Positions 2 through 38,512 of a stretch of DNA of 45,676 nucleotides are shown here, in pieces. The stretch is from the IMG/VR virus record IMGVR_UViG_3300033064_002947, positions 1 through 45,676 of that record; one strand, 5' to 3'. The translations under genes and the position numbers were made by a program. The stretch comes from a virus. Positions within the stretch are counted from its first letter, which is position 1; every line of letters starts with the position of its first letter. Under the pieces are notes generated by a model. That model did not search any database and was not told the origin of the DNA. It saw nothing but the letters and a program-made list of their open reading frames with translations.

Positions 2-235
2 GGCTCGTTCGCCCGCGGCCTAGCCTGCGACGGTGATGTGTTCCTAGTCGGCTGCTCCGAGAGCCTGCCGCGCGACCAGAGATTCGATGGCGGCTCTCGG
101 GTCCTGGTGGTGAGCGACGAATTCGAGATCATGGACAAGATAGAATTGAAGGATACGGGCCAGATACGCGACGTCCGGCTGCTGGAAGGCGACCGGGCGC
201 ACAACGGGATTCCGTTCCCGGGGAAGGCACCATGA
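2..235 (+). CDS. C-terminal fragment of a beta-propeller-like protein
   Basis: The frame is open from the left edge, so this is the last 77 residues of a longer protein. The visible part has strand-turn-strand text: ARGL, VFLVGCSES, RVLVVSDEF, then IRDVRLLEGD near the end. That pattern resembles the last blades of propeller proteins of the TIGR03032/DUF4915 type, but the assignment rests on these short motifs only. The stop overlaps the ATG of the next gene by 4 bases, so it belongs to the same operon as the glycan-type genes that follow. Confidence 0.5.
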   Translation, partial: GSFARGLACDGDVFLVGCSESLPRDQRFDGGSRVLVVSDEFEIMDKIELKDTGQIRDVRLLEGDRAHNGIPFPGKAP

Positions 236-798
236 ACATCGGCTACCTTGGATTACTTATCGAAGCGGCGGTAACGAGGGACCCACCGCCGGAACTGGCG
301 GAGATCTGCGACTATTACAGGCCGTACTACCACCTGATCTATTTGCTGGCTCAGCGCATAGATGGCCTGTTCGTGGAGGTCGGGGTCGAGAAGGGGCGCG
401 GGTGCGGTTCGGCGCTGCTGGGCGGGATGAAGGCCGTTGGCGTGGACCACACCCGCAACGCAGAGAAAATAGGCGAGCTGGAAACCAAGTTCGATGGCTT
501 CACATTCCTGGAGCAGGACTCGCTCCCGGTCCCCAGCTGGTTCACGGAGGACAAGAGGATCGCGGTTCTTCACATTGACACCGAGCACAGCTACTCCCAG
601 GCTAGGGAGGAATTCAAGGGCTACGCCCCGTTCCTGGAAGAGGGAGCCGTTATCCTATTCGACGATCTTCACGCGCAGAACGACGGGGTCGGCAAGTTCT
701 TCTGGAAGCTGCCATACCCCAAGATACAGGATGATAGGCTTCATGAATGTGGTTATGGCGCATTGATATACCATAAAGGGGAAGCGATTCCAGAATGA
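232..798 (+). CDS. Class I SAM-dependent methyltransferase (Methyltransf_24-like)
   Basis: A 188-residue protein with the small class I methyltransferase fold. Motif I is FVEVGVEKGRG (about residues 46-56), followed by the acidic strand VGVDHTRN and a later VLHIDTEHSYSQ and ILFDDLHAQ. The HIDTxHSY and DD(L/I)H pattern is typical of Methyltransf_24 enzymes found in polysaccharide clusters, which methylate sugars. It starts in the ATGA overlap of the previous gene and ends in an ATGA overlap with the next methyltransferase. The likely substrate is a glycan intermediate; the exact acceptor cannot be read. Confidence 0.75.
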   Translation: MNIGYLGLLIEAAVTRDPPPELAEICDYYRPYYHLIYLLAQRIDGLFVEVGVEKGRGCGSALLGGMKAVGVDHTRNAEKIGELETKFDGFTFLEQDSLPVPSWFTEDKRIAVLHIDTEHSYSQAREEFKGYAPFLEEGAVILFDDLHAQNDGVGKFFWKLPYPKIQDDRLHECGYGALIYHKGEAIPE

Positions 799-2637: not shown

Positions 2638-2978
2638 TCGACTGCAAGAACGGCACATTGCTGGAAGCGTATAAGACAGACGATTTTCAACTGACTGTCA
2701 GAACGATCCTTCCCGGAATGAAGGCCGGTGGGCACCGGCACCCGAAGACGAACGAATCGTGGGTAGTAGTCCGGGGCGAGGCGGTGGTCCGGGCGGAAGA
2801 GCCAAACGGCGAGCGCGAGAAGTTCCTGGTCAGCGGGGACAGGCCGCTGATGTTCGGTGTCCCGGCGGGGACGGGCCACGAGATCGAGAACGTCGGGGAA
2901 GGGGAAGTCGTGCTGGTATTCTGGAGCGACCGGTCCTGGGATCCTGGCGACGTGGAGCCGTGGTCATGGCAGGAATGA
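2634..2978 (+). CDS. Cupin-domain protein
   Basis: A 114-residue single-domain cupin. The metal-binding first motif reads G-HRHPKTNESW (His34, His36, Glu41) followed by VVRGEAVV. The second motif is FGVPAGTGHEIEN. Small cupins in glycan loci are commonly sugar-phosphate isomerases or epimerase-like enzymes; this one could also be a glucose-6-phosphate-isomerase-type or mannose-isomerase-type cupin. The ATG overlaps the acyltransferase stop (ATGA), which fixes the start. Confidence 0.8.
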   Translation: MIDCKNGTLLEAYKTDDFQLTVRTILPGMKAGGHRHPKTNESWVVVRGEAVVRAEEPNGEREKFLVSGDRPLMFGVPAGTGHEIENVGEGEVVLVFWSDRSWDPGDVEPWSWQE

Positions 2979-3011
2979 TTTGATACCGCCTCTCAACAGG
3001 AGATATGGCAA

Positions 3012-4763
3012 TTGGACCTGAGCATCGTTTCCGGCACGTACAACAGGCTGCAATACCTGATGAACATGGTCGAGTCGGCCCGGCGACCACTGCGGAAGGT
3101 GGAGGGCATCGAGTACGAATTCGTGCTGGTGGACGGCGGGTCGATGGACGGCACGATCGGATGGTGCCAGAACCAGCCCGACGTCAGGCTGATCGAGCAT
3201 GGCACGCTCAAGGGTGCTGTCAAGGCGTTCAATGACGGGGCCTTCGCCGCGAGCGGCGATTACGTGATCCTCGCGAACGACGATATCGAATTCGTCGAGG
3301 ATTCGGTGCTGAGGGCGCTCGTCTTCATCCGCCAGAGGCCCGAATGCGGAATCGGCTGCTTCTACCAGGACCGCGGCGGCAAGGGCTGGCACGTGGAGAA
3401 TATGCCGATCGTGAGGGACGGACGGCAAGCATATGCACCTTACGGTCAGGTCTGCATCATCCCGAAGTGGCTCGGCGACCGCGTCGGCTGGTGGGGCGAT
3501 TACTTGCACACCTACGGTGGGGACAACGAATTGTCGTCCCAGGTATATGAGACCGGGTACAAGGTCATTCCAATAGAGGGCTGCAAAATCCACGACAACG
3601 AACCGAATGACGGCCTGCGCAAGATCAACAACATCTCTGGCGCCCACGACCCACGGGCGGTGCGGGGTCACCATCCCGACTCGTGGGCCTGGGGCAAGCG
3701 GTGGCGGGATGAGGCGAGGAACTTGGTCGGGCCGCGCATCCGGGACGACTTGCTCTGGGAGCCGCAGACGGCCCGCGAGGAACGGTTCCTGTATCTCCCG
3801 ATCTTCGAGACCGGCTGGCCAGTGCAAAAGGAGCAGAAAAGGGGATTGAGGGAGGCACTGGCCCTCCGGGGCACGATCAAGGAGATAGACTATATCGGGA
3901 TCGCCGCTGCAGACGGCAAGGAGAAACTGCTGGAGGAGCTGGCAGAATGGGCCGTGAAGATCCAGCCGACGGTATGCCTTTTCCAGCTCCACGGCGCGGA
4001 CCCGCTGGGTCCGGCGGATGTGGAGTACCTCCGCAAGGTGATTCCGGACGCTACGTTCGTGAATTGGAACGGCGACTATTGGCCAGACAACCTGCTGACA
4101 GAGCAAGGGATGGCGCTGGCGAGGGCATTCGATTATCAATTGATTGTCAACCGGGCCGTGCTGGAAGAGTACGTCAGGATGGGGGTGAAGGCGGCGTACT
4201 GGCAGATCGGCTGGGAGCCGGATGGCGTCGGGCACGATCCCATGGACCGGTGCGAGGTGGCGTTCCTGGCGAACGGGTACTCCAAGGAGCGGCAGCGGCT
4301 GGTGAAGGATTTGCGGGGGCTGGGGCTGGATTTCCACCTGTGGGGCAAGGGCTGGTCCGACGGCTGGGCGCGGGGCGAATGCCTGTACGATTTCGAGCAG
4401 GCATGTCGCGTATACCGGGGCGCGAAGATCAGCCTGGGTGACAGCCAGTGGCCAGATTCTGGATTCGTGTCCAACCGAGTGTTCCAGGCGCTGGCCGCCG
4501 GGGGGAGCGCGCTGGCGCACCAGCGGTTCCGTGGCATGGAAGATCTAGGTCTCGTGGACGGCGAGACGGTCATCGCCTGGCACTCGTTCGGCGACCTCGC
4601 AGAACGGCTGCGGCATTACCTGTCGCACGAGGAGGACAGGGCGAGGATCGCGAGCGCCGGGGAGCAGCTCGCATTGGAACGCCATTCATTCGACCGCAGA
4701 GTGGAGGAATTGTTCGACATCATCGGCCAACCGAAGGTCGGTTGGCAGGATGGCTGGAGATGA
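3012..4763 (+). CDS. Two-domain glycosyltransferase: GT2 plus CgeB-like GT
   Basis: A 583-residue protein started at TTG 3012, 9 bases after AGGAG; no in-frame ATG precedes the conserved LSIVSGTYNR. Residues 1-240 are a GT-A family 2 domain with VDGGSMDGT (about 40-48) and the nucleotide-sugar/metal motif ANDD (88-91). Residues 300-583 form a GT-B-like domain with GWEPDGV, a FVSNRVFQALAAGG motif and a final rhamnan/CgeB-type helix (YLSHEEDRARIASAG). One polypeptide could therefore add two sugars in succession. It is separated from the cupin by 33 bases. Confidence 0.85.
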   Translation: MDLSIVSGTYNRLQYLMNMVESARRPLRKVEGIEYEFVLVDGGSMDGTIGWCQNQPDVRLIEHGTLKGAVKAFNDGAFAASGDYVILANDDIEFVEDSVLRALVFIRQRPECGIGCFYQDRGGKGWHVENMPIVRDGRQAYAPYGQVCIIPKWLGDRVGWWGDYLHTYGGDNELSSQVYETGYKVIPIEGCKIHDNEPNDGLRKINNISGAHDPRAVRGHHPDSWAWGKRWRDEARNLVGPRIRDDLLWEPQTAREERFLYLPIFETGWPVQKEQKRGLREALALRGTIKEIDYIGIAAADGKEKLLEELAEWAVKIQPTVCLFQLHGADPLGPADVEYLRKVIPDATFVNWNGDYWPDNLLTEQGMALARAFDYQLIVNRAVLEEYVRMGVKAAYWQIGWEPDGVGHDPMDRCEVAFLANGYSKERQRLVKDLRGLGLDFHLWGKGWSDGWARGECLYDFEQACRVYRGAKISLGDSQWPDSGFVSNRVFQALAAGGSALAHQRFRGMEDLGLVDGETVIAWHSFGDLAERLRHYLSHEEDRARIASAGEQLALERHSFDRRVEELFDIIGQPKVGWQDGWR

Positions 4764-20736: not shown

Positions 20737-21155
20737 GCGAGGAACTGATCGGGGAGATGATCGCGCACATCGCGGCACTGGAGCGGCGGTTAGACGACTT
20801 GGATCTTCCGGCACAGGCATATCACTACCAGCCGATTACCATCGTCAAGGGTTGGGACCCCGCCAGCAACAAGGCGTCGCAGACACTGAATCTCCAGGCT
20901 GCACCATGGAGCCTGCCTGCAGGCATTAAGGCGGTGGCGGTGTATTTGGCCTACACAGCGGCCAACAACGGCGACAACGGCCAGCTTGAGAAATCCAGCG
21001 GGAATGGCACGGCCGTCTTCGCCATTTGTCCTGATGCCGCTGAGTACGGATCTGGCTCGGGCATCGTGAACTGTGATGCTAACGGTGACATCTATTTCAC
21101 CACCAATCAAGCCACGAATACGGTATATCTATTCATTCATGGGTACTTCATCTGA
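20733..21155 (+). CDS. Small tail-tip or fibre protein
   Basis: A 140-residue protein if started at TTG 20733 (overlapping the previous TGA); ATG 20757 is an alternative. It begins with a short coiled coil (IGEMIAHIAALERRLDDL) followed by a beta-rich domain (AVAVYLAYTAANNG, VYLFIHGYFI). A trimerising coil plus small beta domain is common in minor tail-tip and fibre proteins. No family recognised. Confidence 0.6.
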   Translation: MSEELIGEMIAHIAALERRLDDLDLPAQAYHYQPITIVKGWDPASNKASQTLNLQAAPWSLPAGIKAVAVYLAYTAANNGDNGQLEKSSGNGTAVFAICPDAAEYGSGSGIVNCDANGDIYFTTNQATNTVYLFIHGYFI

Positions 21156-21165
21156 GGGAAGAAAT

Positions 21166-22644
21166 ATGTACAGACTGATAGGAGGGCACACGAATCACAC
21201 CTTCGGCGGCATACCGGAACTGGTGGCTTCCTGGCAACCGCCGGTGTGGCTGGTGATGGACCCCAGCCCTGAATGGAAGTGGGTAGCGCAAGCGTGCCCC
21301 AGGACGGTGTTCATCTGGCGCGTTTTCAATGCGGACCAACCGGACTTCAACCAGCCGCTGGACCCAATCGCGGCGGCTAGGGCGCACGTCGCCCAGGTTC
21401 TCCCTTGGGCGGGAAACGTGTTTGGCGGCAAATGGAAGGGCGTCAACGAGCCGGTGATCGCGTCCAGGGGGGCCATGAGACGGTTCGCTGAGTTCGAGGC
21501 AGAGCGGGTGCGGCTCTTGGCGGCCCATGGCCTCCAGGCCGTCGTGGGCGGGTTCGCCGTCGGCAACCCGCCGGACCTGTCCTGGTGGCGGGAATTCGAG
21601 CCAGCGCTGAAGACGGCGGGCGAGCACGGCGGCGTATTGGGCCTGCACCAATACTGGTGGGAGACGCCCAAAGACCATAGGTTCGTGGACCCCGACTGGA
21701 CCTCGCTGCGACACCGCAAGGTGTACGACGGCGAACCGTCGCACGGATGGGAAGGATTGCAGAACCGGCTTCCCCTGGTCATGATGGAGGGCGGTGCGGA
21801 CTGTGGCGTGTGGGAAGAGGGGGTCGTAGAGGGCTGGAATAGGATCAGGAATCCGGAGCAGTATAAAGCCGACCTGAATGAGTTTAGCCTGGAAATACAG
21901 AAAGATACTTACGTCTTGGGCGTCTGCGTGTTCTGTTGCGGCAATTCGTCTTTTCTCTGGACGGGCTATGACATCTGGCCACAGATGGCGCGGGAAATCG
22001 CTGAAAAGGCGGTGCCGCTGTACCGAAAGTTCCAACCACCGCCGGAGAAATGGGCGCGGGGCATCGACGTGTCGAGCAACCAGAAGACGATCAAGTGGGC
22101 GCAGGTAGCGAAGGTGGGCTACTCGTTCGCGTTCATCCGGGCCTCGGCGGGCCTGTGGAAGGACCCACAGTACGACCGCAACTACAAGCTGGCGAGAAAG
22201 CGGGGCCTCCTGGTCGGTAGCTACCACTACCAGCGCCGGGACCAGAACCCGAGAGAGCAGGCCCGGTTTTTCGTGTCCGTGGCGGGGAAGCCGGACATTT
22301 TCAACGCGAATGACATAGAGCATCTCCGAGGAGAATGCCCCTCCAGGGCACAGGTGATGGCATTCCACGACGAGGCGGGCGAAATGGACTATTACACCAG
22401 CGCGTGGCAATGGGACTCCAAATGCAAGATCGGCCCCGCGCCGTGGGTTGGGAAGTTGTGGGTGGCGGACTGGGCACCGAGGCGCTTCGGCGATCCGCGC
22501 TTGCCGTCCGACTGGGACAGATGGGAGTTCCAGCAGTACACCAGCCGGGGCAAGGTGCCTGGCATAATCGGCAACGTGGACCTTGACATTTTCAACGGCA
22601 CCGCGGCGGAGCTGCGGGCCAAATACGGGGGAACAGCAAAATGA
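21166..22644 (+). CDS. Endolysin: GH-A-like barrel fused to GH25 lysozyme
   Basis: A 492-residue protein from ATG 21166. Residues 285-492 are a GH25 (Chalaropsis-type) muramidase: GIDVSSNQ with Asp301, FAFIRASAG, the acidic NDIEHL (Asp383, Glu385), LWVADWA, and VDLDIFNG at the end. It should cleave the MurNAc-GlcNAc bond in peptidoglycan. Residues 1-280 look like a TIM barrel with WKGVNEP (Glu95) and LVMMEGG (Glu208), the spacing of acid/base and nucleophile in clan GH-A. No signal peptide is visible, so export needs a holin or it is virion-borne. Confidence 0.85.
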   Translation: MYRLIGGHTNHTFGGIPELVASWQPPVWLVMDPSPEWKWVAQACPRTVFIWRVFNADQPDFNQPLDPIAAARAHVAQVLPWAGNVFGGKWKGVNEPVIASRGAMRRFAEFEAERVRLLAAHGLQAVVGGFAVGNPPDLSWWREFEPALKTAGEHGGVLGLHQYWWETPKDHRFVDPDWTSLRHRKVYDGEPSHGWEGLQNRLPLVMMEGGADCGVWEEGVVEGWNRIRNPEQYKADLNEFSLEIQKDTYVLGVCVFCCGNSSFLWTGYDIWPQMAREIAEKAVPLYRKFQPPPEKWARGIDVSSNQKTIKWAQVAKVGYSFAFIRASAGLWKDPQYDRNYKLARKRGLLVGSYHYQRRDQNPREQARFFVSVAGKPDIFNANDIEHLRGECPSRAQVMAFHDEAGEMDYYTSAWQWDSKCKIGPAPWVGKLWVADWAPRRFGDPRLPSDWDRWEFQQYTSRGKVPGIIGNVDLDIFNGTAAELRAKYGGTAK

Positions 22645-22687
22645 TAACGGTTGACCAAGCAGCACAAGATTACGGCATTACGGTTGA
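22641..22687 (+). repeat. Direct repeat copy 1
   Basis: Matches 23176-23222 at 39 of 47 positions, including 17 identical bases in a row (GCACAAGATTACGGCAT). It covers the start codon and first 15 codons of two genes. Confidence 0.8.
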
Positions 22688-35795: not shown

Positions 35796-35911
35796 GTCGA
35801 AATCGCCTGCCAGCGTCAAGCCAACCAGGAGATCCGGGCCCCACCGATGGAACACCGTCAGTGTCCCTTGATGACCCTGGATTGGTTGGCGTCGACCTTG
35901 GCATACTTCAC
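35796..35911 (-). pseudogene. Remnant of a VRR-NUC nuclease gene
   Basis: Just after the Dam-like gene, GTG 35911 gives KVDANQSRVIKGH and stops; the next frame continues with FHRWGPDLLVGL. KVDANQ and PDLLVG are the two conserved pieces of the VRR-NUC family, as in the intact gene at 27870 (VDANQPAIVK; PDALVA), but the linking helix is lost and the frame is broken. Presented as a decayed gene. Confidence 0.45.
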
Positions 35912-36384
35912 AATGCTTTCCCGTCTTGCCCTATAGCAGATAACTTTCTCTGATTATTGCCCTGTCGAAATACTAGGATCGCCGACGGAAACGGCGCTGG
36001 ACCGCTGCCGCTGAACCGAAGCCTCCCTTTCACCAACCTGATCTCGCTGGCCCGCATGGCATAGTCATGCCACCAACGAACATCGGTTCTTGCGGCAAGC
36101 AGCATGACGACTATACTTCCCTTCTGCGCTTCCTCGTAGCCCTTGCGGACGAACGCATAGGTCAATTTCCAGTCCTTTGTGTACGGCGGATTACACCAGA
36201 TGATCCCGTCCCAGGGCTGGAGCAGGGCATTATCCTCCTTGGTCCAGAACCGTTCGCATTTGGCGTTCTCTGCGGATGCGGCGGCGTCCAGGTCAAAGCT
36301 GAACTCGCGATCCAATTCATCAAAGAAGTCCTGCGGGGTCTCCCACTCACTGCGGGCGGAGGAGAATAGAACCTTGTCAACCAC
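35908..36384 (-). CDS. Dam-like DNA N6-adenine methyltransferase
   Basis: 158 residues from GTG 36384, overlapping the previous gene by 8 bases. It begins with SARSEWETPQDFFDELDREF and FDLDAAASAENAKC, typical of phage Dam-type proteins, and has the catalytic motif NPPY (WCNPPYTKDW). FPSAILVFR at the end is the last strand. These enzymes protect phage DNA from host restriction. The family is normally 140-190 residues, so the gene is complete. Confidence 0.85.
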   Translation of the reverse strand: MVDKVLFSSARSEWETPQDFFDELDREFSFDLDAAASAENAKCERFWTKEDNALLQPWDGIIWCNPPYTKDWKLTYAFVRKGYEEAQKGSIVVMLLAARTDVRWWHDYAMRASEIRLVKGRLRFSGSGPAPFPSAILVFRQGNNQRKLSAIGQDGKAL

Positions 36385-38512
36385 GCTTCACATCCACGAA
36401 CATTGGAGCGTCGCCCTCGATGCGTTCGCGGCCCATCTCGCAGTAGTCGGCTGAAAGGTCAATCAGAATCGCGTCGCGGCCTAGCCGGTCAGCGACGAGG
36501 CCCACGGTGCCAGCGCCGGAGAAAGGATCAAGGCATGTGGCGGGAACGGGAGTCAGCTCTGGTGCGATTATGATGCCCTCGGACATTGCCATCGTCCCCT
36601 TGAGTACCGAGCGGTCTAACTTATTCTGGCAATCGCAGGTGGGACGCCAGCCGGTTGTGGTCTTTTCATAGCTACCAAATCCATCTGCATTTGTCATGCC
36701 TATGCCTGACAAATCTGTCATTCCGTGCATCTTCTGCCCATATTCTGGGCAAAACGGCTTGCCACCGCGTAGGGTTTTGAAGTCTCCCTTCTCCACCACC
36801 CTGACCCAAGGAGCCAAACATGTAGGGCATACGCCGCGCTCAGAAGTCCCGGCGCGAATCATCGGCTCGACGAGGGCGGGAGGAAAAGTTGCGAAGTGGG
36901 CGTCGGGGAAGGGCGACGTGAGGATGGTCCAGACGGTTCGTTTATTGCGGCCTGCGGGGTTGCCCCATTCGCGGTCGGGGTCTTGGGCCGGGTCTGTCGC
37001 GGCCCTAGCGCCAATCCGTCTTTGCGTCTTGTTTCCTGGGGCATGACGCGGCCCATCAAACTTTTCCCTCACCGCATCCGCGTCGTAGAAATATCTCGCG
37101 CTCTTGGACATCAAGAAAACATATTCGTGACTTCGCGTCGGCCTGTCGGTCACGCTCTCGGGCATACAGTTCGGCTTCGCCCAGATGATGTCGCTTCTCA
37201 GCCACCACCCGTCAGCCTGGAGCGCGAAGGCGACGCGCCAGGGTATCCCGCACAGGTCTTTGGGTTTGAGCGCGTTTGTCCTGCATCGCCCATCAGGTAT
37301 GCGGCGCGGTGCTTTTGGATCGGCGTGATTGTCTGCCTGTGGTGTACTCGCGTAGCTATCCCCCAAGTTCAGCCACAGCGTCCCATCGTCCCGCAGGACT
37401 CGTTTCACTTCGCGCATCACCTCGACCAGGTGCTCGACGAACAGCTCGGGCGTCGGTTCGAGGCCGAGGCTGGACTTGACTGCACCGCACTTTTGACATA
37501 TATTAGTAGCAGAGGATTGATCATGCCAGTTACCTTGATTTGCACAAGTTGCGGATGTAGTTTTCAAGTCGGGCCGTCCCAAGTCGCTAGGCGTCGGACT
37601 TGCTCCCCCGCCTGCCGTGATACCAGAATTGAAGTTGCTTGTGAATTTTGCGGAAAGTCTCTCCTCCGCCCCAATTGGCATCGCAGAATGTCTAATCACC
37701 ATTTCTGTACCACTGCTTGCAGTTCTGCCTTCAGGAGAACCTACCGCTTGGGTGCTCACCAAATCAATTTTTCCCTCTTTGATGAGTGGACTGACACAGC
37801 AGCCTATCTGTTTGGATTGCTCTGTGCCGACGGTCACATTTGTGATAATGGGCAGGTCGGATTCGTCAGCGCAGATGAGTCTTTGACTGTCTTTGTCCGC
37901 GATTCCCTTGCCCCTCAAAGCCCGATCAGAACTGAGACGACGAAGGCTGGTACCATCGTGTTCCGTTGGAACATCTGGTCGATGCGACTTATTGATTTGC
38001 TTCAGTCCTTCGGACTTACTCCCCGCAAAAGTCTGACCCTGCAATGGCCTCACATCCCCGATGGCGCCATCTACGGTTTCATCCGAGGATATCTCGATGG
38101 CGACGGGCATATTGATAAGGTTGCCAGAATCAGTTTTGCCACTGCTAGTCGATGTTTTGCCGACGGGCTTTGTGATACCCTGAATAATCTTGGGCATCGC
38201 ACTAGTATTTACAATGGTACTAGGGTCTTCTCTGTTACAGTCGGTATCCCCGGTAGCCGTTCGCTTGGATTGCAGTTGTATGCCTCCGGTTTTTGTCTCA
38301 CCAGAAAACGGGACAGGTTCTTCATGTATGCACGTCTCTGAACCCCAAGGCACCCATTCGTGTTGGCAGTTTTCATCCCCGCCCCACACCAGCGGGGGCG
38401 TACCATATGAACGCAACCCCCAATATGGAGGAGAAGTCACACAACAGTGAACAGACTCGGCGGGTAGCTCTCGCAGCTTCACGCGGCAATCACCCTGAAT
38501 GATGCGAATCAC
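36377..38512 (-). CDS. DNA N4-cytosine/N6-adenine methyltransferase carrying an in-frame antisense insertion
   Basis: The frame is open for 711 codons from GTG 38512. Residues 1-57 hold the catalytic TSPPYWG (26-32) and 331-711 hold CQKCGAV, LGLEPTPELF, TLWLNLGDSYAS and the SAM motif DPFSGAG (662-668). This is a beta-class methyltransferase of the kind with D/N/S-PPY before FxGxG. Residues 58-330 are exactly the antisense translation of a LAGLIDADG gene and are Ser/Thr-rich without similarity to the enzyme. Removing them leaves a normal 438-residue enzyme. Activity with the insert is uncertain. Confidence 0.85.
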   Translation of the reverse strand: MIRIIQGDCRVKLRELPAESVHCCVTSPPYWGLRSYGTPPLVWGGDENCQHEWVPWGSETCIHEEPVPFSGETKTGGIQLQSKRTATGDTDCNREDPSTIVNTSAMPKIIQGITKPVGKTSTSSGKTDSGNLINMPVAIEISSDETVDGAIGDVRPLQGQTFAGSKSEGLKQINKSHRPDVPTEHDGTSLRRLSSDRALRGKGIADKDSQRLICADESDLPIITNVTVGTEQSKQIGCCVSPLIKEGKIDLVSTQAVGSPEGRTASSGTEMVIRHSAMPIGAEERLSAKFTSNFNSGITAGGGASPTPSDLGRPDLKTTSATCANQGNWHDQSSATNICQKCGAVKSSLGLEPTPELFVEHLVEVMREVKRVLRDDGTLWLNLGDSYASTPQADNHADPKAPRRIPDGRCRTNALKPKDLCGIPWRVAFALQADGWWLRSDIIWAKPNCMPESVTDRPTRSHEYVFLMSKSARYFYDADAVREKFDGPRHAPGNKTQRRIGARAATDPAQDPDREWGNPAGRNKRTVWTILTSPFPDAHFATFPPALVEPMIRAGTSERGVCPTCLAPWVRVVEKGDFKTLRGGKPFCPEYGQKMHGMTDLSGIGMTNADGFGSYEKTTTGWRPTCDCQNKLDRSVLKGTMAMSEGIIIAPELTPVPATCLDPFSGAGTVGLVADRLGRDAILIDLSADYCEMGRERIEGDAPMFVDVKRG
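37476..37504 (+). promoter_or_regulatory. Sigma70-like promoter for the nested LAGLIDADG gene
   Basis: TTGACT (37476-37481), 17 bases, TATATT (37499-37504); the start codon is at 37523 with AGAGG at 37511-37515. The site lies within methyltransferase coding sequence, so it may predate the insertion. Confidence 0.5.
37523..38341 (+). CDS. LAGLIDADG homing endonuclease nested antisense in a methyltransferase gene
   Basis: 272 residues from ATG 37523. It has an N-terminal pair of zinc fingers (C7/C10/C27/C31 and C40/C43/C62/C66), then two LAGLIDADG motifs, AYLFGLLCADGH (94-105) and FIRGYLDGDGHI (185-196), so it can act as a monomer. The stop codon TGA lies exactly where methyltransferase homology resumes. 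Codons are in antisense register with the methyltransferase, and no TTA, CTA or TCA is used among about 25 Leu and 23 Ser, keeping the other strand open. Confidence 0.9.
   Translation: MPVTLICTSCGCSFQVGPSQVARRRTCSPACRDTRIEVACEFCGKSLLRPNWHRRMSNHHFCTTACSSAFRRTYRLGAHQINFSLFDEWTDTAAYLFGLLCADGHICDNGQVGFVSADESLTVFVRDSLAPQSPIRTETTKAGTIVFRWNIWSMRLIDLLQSFGLTPRKSLTLQWPHIPDGAIYGFIRGYLDGDGHIDKVARISFATASRCFADGLCDTLNNLGHRTSIYNGTRVFSVTVGIPGSRSLGLQLYASGFCLTRKRDRFFMYARL

Follow-up and report, generated by a model that had tools for sequence, protein, structure and literature searches.

To spare their host, homing endonucleases are thought to depend either on a partner that splices or on a location between genes. 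An earlier hint of another way is the ShiLan element, an HNH endonuclease concealed in a mycobacteriophage methylase gene, on the same strand but in another frame. The methylase frame is readable and free of stops, and no splicing element was found (PMC11855218). The disjunct distribution of ShiLan suggests that it homes from phage to phage (Arsenault et al. 2025, PMC11855218). Pacc40 gp60 is another such methylase insertion at a different position, and both inserts are predicted to loop out of the methylase (PMC11855218). In Taj_79 a LAGLIDADG domain is fused in frame in an actinophage methylase of the same family as ShiLan's (PMC9957025). Moreover, genes of T4-like phages can be split by free-standing endonucleases, as nrdA of phage Aeh1 is by mobE, while segD lies antisense (PMC2988022). 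Here we describe a LAGLIDADG endonuclease gene on the opposite strand of a DNA methyltransferase gene in the IMG/VR virus record IMGVR_UViG_3300033064_002947. The window, i.e. the whole stretch analysed, comprises 45,676 nucleotides (45.7 kb, GC 57%). Judged from its sequence, the element is probably a free-standing homing endonuclease that was inserted backwards in the phage methyltransferase gene and is tolerated as the host is translated through it.

An endonuclease frame antisense to a methyltransferase frame

The methyltransferase open reading frame (ORF) has 711 codons with a GTG start (36377-38512, minus strand) and stays open across the insert. Its ends belong to family PF01555 and match the N6_N4_Mtase profile (E 7e-37). 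Inside it, on the plus strand, lies the endonuclease ORF (37523-38341, 819 bp, 272 amino acids), with matches to PF14528 (E 4.8e-12) and phrog_4645 (E 3e-21). It shows a Cys-rich N-terminal region and two LAGLIDADG motifs (LFGLLCADG and FIRGYLDGDG), which both keep their acidic residues. The nearest solved relative by sequence is the putative homing endonuclease PDB 2dch. These ORFs with their strands, lengths and identities had been proposed in a sequence-only reading of this DNA, which the profile matches bear out.

Both ORFs run on opposite strands with codon boundaries in common. None of the 48 Leu/Ser codons of the endonuclease (25 Leu, 23 Ser) is TTA, CTA or TCA, and the host-direction frame contains no stop over the 273 codons of the read-through segment (37523-38341, minus strand), as the sequence-only reading had also observed. 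The other two antisense frames contain 11 and 17 stops.

The catalytic motifs of the methyltransferase are intact on either side of the insert. Host part 1 (residues 1-57; 38342-38512, minus strand) carries motif IV TSPPYW (26-31) and C-x-H-E-W (49-53). Host part 2 (residues 331-711; 36377-37522, minus strand) carries I-C-x-x-C-G (338-343), the target-recognition region, GRNKRTVW (521) and motif I DPFSGAG (662-668). Motif IV preceding motif I is the order of beta-class N6/N4 enzymes, and the methyltransferase fold is found as well. For the fold prediction with AlphaFold2 the 710-residue read-through product (start codon omitted) was used together with 35 relatives. The model is confident to either side of the insert, with a predicted local distance difference test (pLDDT) mostly of 74-98 in part 1 and ≥90 in the core of part 2. 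The modelled core matches CcrM, M.BceJIV, RsrI and MboIIA in fold comparison. The read-through segment has no known domain and is modelled as low-confidence coil, with a pLDDT of ~30 over residues 63-329 that may partly stem from the insert having no homologues.

Compared with uninterrupted relatives, the insert falls between C-x-H-E-W and I-C-x-x-C-G. According to the Cys/His pattern, C-x-H-E-W and C-x-x-C-G are probably the halves of a zinc-binding hairpin. The linker joining them in relatives is hypervariable, ranging from 5 to ~60 residues with no conserved sequence. Hence the window junctions cannot be placed to the codon and are fixed no closer than between residues 53 and 338. The sequence-only reading took the endonuclease ORF to be the whole insertion; as the junctions are only bracketed, this remains an assumption for the window, and it does not hold for the second case described below.

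Openness of the host frame and a second case

From the phage's own codon usage, the probability of no antisense stop in the window endonuclease is 0.0022. Synonymous simulations gave 37 of 20,000 sequences without antisense stop (mean 5.7 stops). Nine related endonucleases of similar GC contain 50 antisense stops in 266 Leu/Ser codons, compared to 0/48 in the window (p 1e-4), and the host parts of the same ORF contain 7/52 (p 0.008). On its own the window is suggestive; the excess of openness over chance is moderate and not compelling. The statistical weight rests on a second case, L290, and on the GC-matched relatives.

L290 is a phage contig with 35% GC. Its endonuclease ORF (L290:2956-3693) lies on the opposite strand to a PF01555 methyltransferase ORF of 797 codons (L290:2425-4818, minus strand) which encloses it codon-aligned and antisense and retains its methyltransferase motifs, as in the window. 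Antisense stops are absent from its 36 Leu/Ser codons, which differs from GC-matched relatives (p 4e-8) and from its own host parts (27/60, p 2e-7). The probability of no antisense stop from the codon usage of the contig is 1.5e-6, a value requiring a ~100-fold correction (still ~1e-4 or lower) as this endonuclease was picked by a screen for missing antisense stops. All 20,000 simulated sequences contained two or more stops. Location inside a methyltransferase was not a criterion of the screen. The sequence-only reading had named read-through at the rate expected for the codon bias as grounds for giving up its proposal. Instead, both frames are open beyond codon-usage expectation, strongly so for L290 and moderately for the window alone.

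The L290 insertion site differs from that of the window and reads GKNPGD / VWKIPTQPFPEAHF. This motif is uninterrupted and of fixed length in relatives (GKNPGDCWIIPT in L258, GRNPGDVWEIPT in Mycobacterium phage Mantra gp63), and the L290 insert can therefore be sized to exactly 262 codons. It exceeds the endonuclease ORF by ~48 bp, with about one codon at the 3' side and ~45-48 bp at the 5' side. The latter carry a promoter-like TTGACT-17-TATATT (L290:2921-2949).

The contigs of the window and L290 are almost unrelated; apart from the methyltransferase, only two other ORFs match, and weakly. Their endonucleases share 32% identity over 146 residues and are not paired in a quick endonuclease tree, in which many branches are unresolved. 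By these sequence comparisons L290 is an independent second instance of an antisense, codon-aligned endonuclease, located in a related methyltransferase of an unrelated phage. A second insert-like stretch is seen in the middle of the L290 methyltransferase (residues ~250-310); it contains two C-x-x-C-x-G-x-G zinc-knuckle motifs and has weak Pfam matches only.

The screen for antisense stops covered the 80 best endonuclease relatives from viral contigs plus matches from a phage collection, and a later scan extended it to 103 distinct cores. Only the endonucleases of the window and L290 lack antisense stops, both codon-aligned in PF01555 methyltransferases. Scanning with a pairwise alignment as the query brought up L290 once more and nothing else. 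The codon use of related endonucleases, which the sequence-only reading had suggested to examine, thus sets these two apart. Where both neighbours of an endonuclease lie on the opposite strand, they could be the pieces of a broken gene; wherever such neighbours were identifiable, the endonuclease turned out to be intergenic. There is some circularity in identifying cases from an open frame around them, since an endonuclease that has disrupted the frame of its host is less easily recognised; the neighbour check offsets this only in part. In 400 of ~800 bacterial genomes no methyltransferase with such an internal endonuclease was found. Close relatives of the window endonuclease are scarce, with one weak match in IMG/VR and about a third identity at best in phages. 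An interrupted copy was not found in the nearest phage relatives; the sole methyltransferase match in L054 is distant and uninterrupted, and L055 has none.

Other arrangements were noted along the way. A LAGLIDADG gene in a Chloroflexi genome (L378, 60% GC) is intergenic, lying antisense between the genes of an ArsA ATPase and a DUF1003 protein, with one antisense stop in its core. In Brevibacillus phage Jenst (L273) and Dulem virus 36 (L275), LAGLIDADG genes on the same strand separate fragments whose annotation assigns them to a single polymerase or primase, an arrangement resembling intron-split or inserted genes.

Possible mechanism and competing explanations

We suggest the following course of events. 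A promoter-like site of its own, on the strand opposite to the host gene, would drive expression of the window endonuclease, which would cut uninvaded methyltransferase alleles of co-infecting phages, whereupon repair would copy the insert. A candidate site, TTGACT-17-TATATT, lies 5' of the endonuclease over host codons (37476-37504, plus strand) and is identical in hexamers and spacing to that of L290. AGAGG, a possible ribosome-binding site, is situated 6 bases 5' of the ATG (37512-37516, plus strand). The ribosome would read through the insert, and the resulting methyltransferase, extended by a loop of ~270 residues, would be at least partly active. In the window this loop would project from the tip of the probable zinc-binding hairpin. 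Selection for a readable host product would then purge TTA, CTA and TCA from the endonuclease gene. With less assurance, and on balance, we also favour a broader view: a recurrent class of homing endonuclease genes codes on two strands, its antisense frame serving as a translatable, benign insert of an active enzyme without intron or intein, with at least two origins at different sites of phage methyltransferases.

Several observations weigh against such translation through the insert. There are two cases only, with no further ones among the ~800 bacterial genomes (phyla of Desulfovirgula and a Chloroflexi metagenome-assembled genome), and no relatives carrying the insert at either site were found. 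L290 was selected by the very feature it is cited for, hence the correction given above. Promoter-like matches are common by chance for both the window and L290 (1 found in the window versus 0.8 expected). Moreover, 16% of the 273-codon stretches in the other genes of the window phage are likewise open in the aligned antisense frame. Several other long antisense ORFs exist there as well, of which two very long, codon-aligned ones face plus-strand genes (2964-4520, minus strand, 518 amino acids; 21148-22665, minus strand, 505 amino acids), because the opposite genes use few TTA, CTA and TCA codons; they caution against taking open antisense frames for genes. These figures are what speaks for openness by chance, according to which the endonuclease broke a dispensable methyltransferase and the frame is open as the three codons are rare in a fairly GC-rich phage. 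The sequence-only reading had spoken of an essential gene, but the phage methylase examined in PMC11855218 can be dispensed with, as it is missing from close relatives. Nevertheless we regard chance as unlikely, given the probabilities from the own codon usage of both contigs, the presence of such codons in the host parts of the same ORFs and the flanks on both sides that are still intact coding sequence. Strand-biased mutation as a cause of the codon bias was rejected, since in both contigs the four-fold sites of plus- and minus-strand genes are balanced for purines and pyrimidines.

Some phage genes remain functional although an endonuclease gene splits them (PMC2988022), and there are possible internal starts within the insert, so that the halves might be made as separate polypeptides and then assembled, like nrdA with mobE in phage Aeh1. 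Such a gene in pieces needs no frame open through the insert, yet both inserts are open, and the first piece in the window would have 57 residues only, which makes this explanation very improbable. A spliced element, be it a compact intron or an unusual intein with an antisense endonuclease, seems extremely unlikely. Antisense endonucleases are reported from nuclear rDNA group I introns (PMC9548176). However, a spliced insert does not need an open frame either, and the L290 insert leaves little room for a splicing element, with only 48 bp outside the endonuclease ORF. Searching the window region against Rfam gave no match even at E 1, and L290 gave only a sub-threshold snoRNA match. Likewise, no splicing domain was detected in the read-through segments, for the window by Pfam, PHROG and NCBIfam matches of the host-frame translation. 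The absence of intron and intein sequence noted in the sequence-only reading is thereby upheld. With intron, intein, split gene and strand bias disfavoured, translation of the host protein through the insert is what remains.

The read-through segment could also have become a functional methyltransferase domain, e.g. for target recognition, and thus be more than a tolerated loop. Four-fold third positions are 71-75% pyrimidine, compared to about half in the genes of the contigs, and CNN-coded residues are depleted in the insert peptides (z -5.0 and -3.3), a depletion that follows from the preference of the endonuclease genes for pyrimidine third positions. This bias might reflect selection on the read-through peptide, which is not decisive, and it is nearly as strong in some antisense-closed relatives. 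Neither peptide has a family or sequence match, including a search of the antisense peptides against phages, and the window insert is modelled as unstructured. We therefore consider a functional domain highly unlikely.

Besides the interrupted gene, the window contains a methyltransferase-like gene directly after it with slight overlap (35908-36384, minus strand; phrog_111, E 1e-51) and another one with a partial match to phrog_2675 (232-798, plus strand). The window phage may carry several DNA methylases.

Relation to known systems

Translation through the insert would probably allow the invader to spread while the methylase gene it occupies stays unbroken. It would also make the locus a natural, directly testable example of long two-strand coding. 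Gene callers which forbid antisense overlaps can miss such endonucleases.

Long antisense overlapping genes of bacteria likewise encode two proteins from opposite strands of one stretch (PMC9927249, PMC7457138). In those cases a new gene is proposed to have arisen in an older one, whereas in the window and L290 the newcomer is a mobile gene, through which the older gene is probably read. T4 segD and the rDNA intron endonucleases are also antisense to their surroundings (PMC2988022, PMC9548176). However, the antisense orientation of segD is described relative to its region, and segD is not presented as an insert leaving a host frame open (PMC2988022). The rDNA cases are reported from introns that are spliced out of rRNA, where there is no host reading frame to keep (PMC9548176). 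The arrangement of mobE and nrdA has in common with the window and L290 an endonuclease gene within a host gene and no intron or intein. In contrast to nrdA, which is made as two polypeptides, the host gene is one continuous frame here.

What Taj_79 shares with the window and L290 is a phage DNA methylase that houses a LAGLIDADG endonuclease and lacks detectable splicing domains. Unlike Taj_79, where the endonuclease uses the frame and strand of its host, the host strand of our two cases encodes an unrelated peptide. The Mantra gene listed as a ShiLan carrier is seemingly gp64, which is PF01555 too but shows only motif-level similarity to the window host. Mantra gp64 (L490:3836-6160) is an N6_N4_Mtase protein with an internal LAGLIDADG_1 domain (residues 62-159) that shares its frame and strand. 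This agrees with the single LAGLIDADG insertion reported for the methylase family of ShiLan.

The sequence-only reading knew of no precedent. This stands for an antisense endonuclease that keeps its host frame, as none was found in a literature search with most subscription journals outside its coverage, and the words antisense, reverse, opposite and complement are absent from the text of the ShiLan paper (PMC11855218). It does not stand for frame-keeping as such, given the endonucleases of ShiLan and Pacc40. Like these, the window and L290 show an endonuclease gene in a phage methylase, a host frame without stops and no intron or intein. Unlike in ShiLan, where an HNH endonuclease lies out of frame, the endonuclease is of the LAGLIDADG type, on the opposite strand and codon-aligned. 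Evidence of homing from a disjunct distribution belongs to ShiLan, while for the window and L290 no relatives carrying the insert were found. Going by these features, the window element would work like a ShiLan-type element, yet is distinct from ShiLan. The window and L290 add another endonuclease family, unrelated phages and statistical evidence of selection keeping the host frame open. Taken together, an out-of-frame endonuclease in a readable phage methylase is already known, and what is new here is its opposite-strand counterpart.
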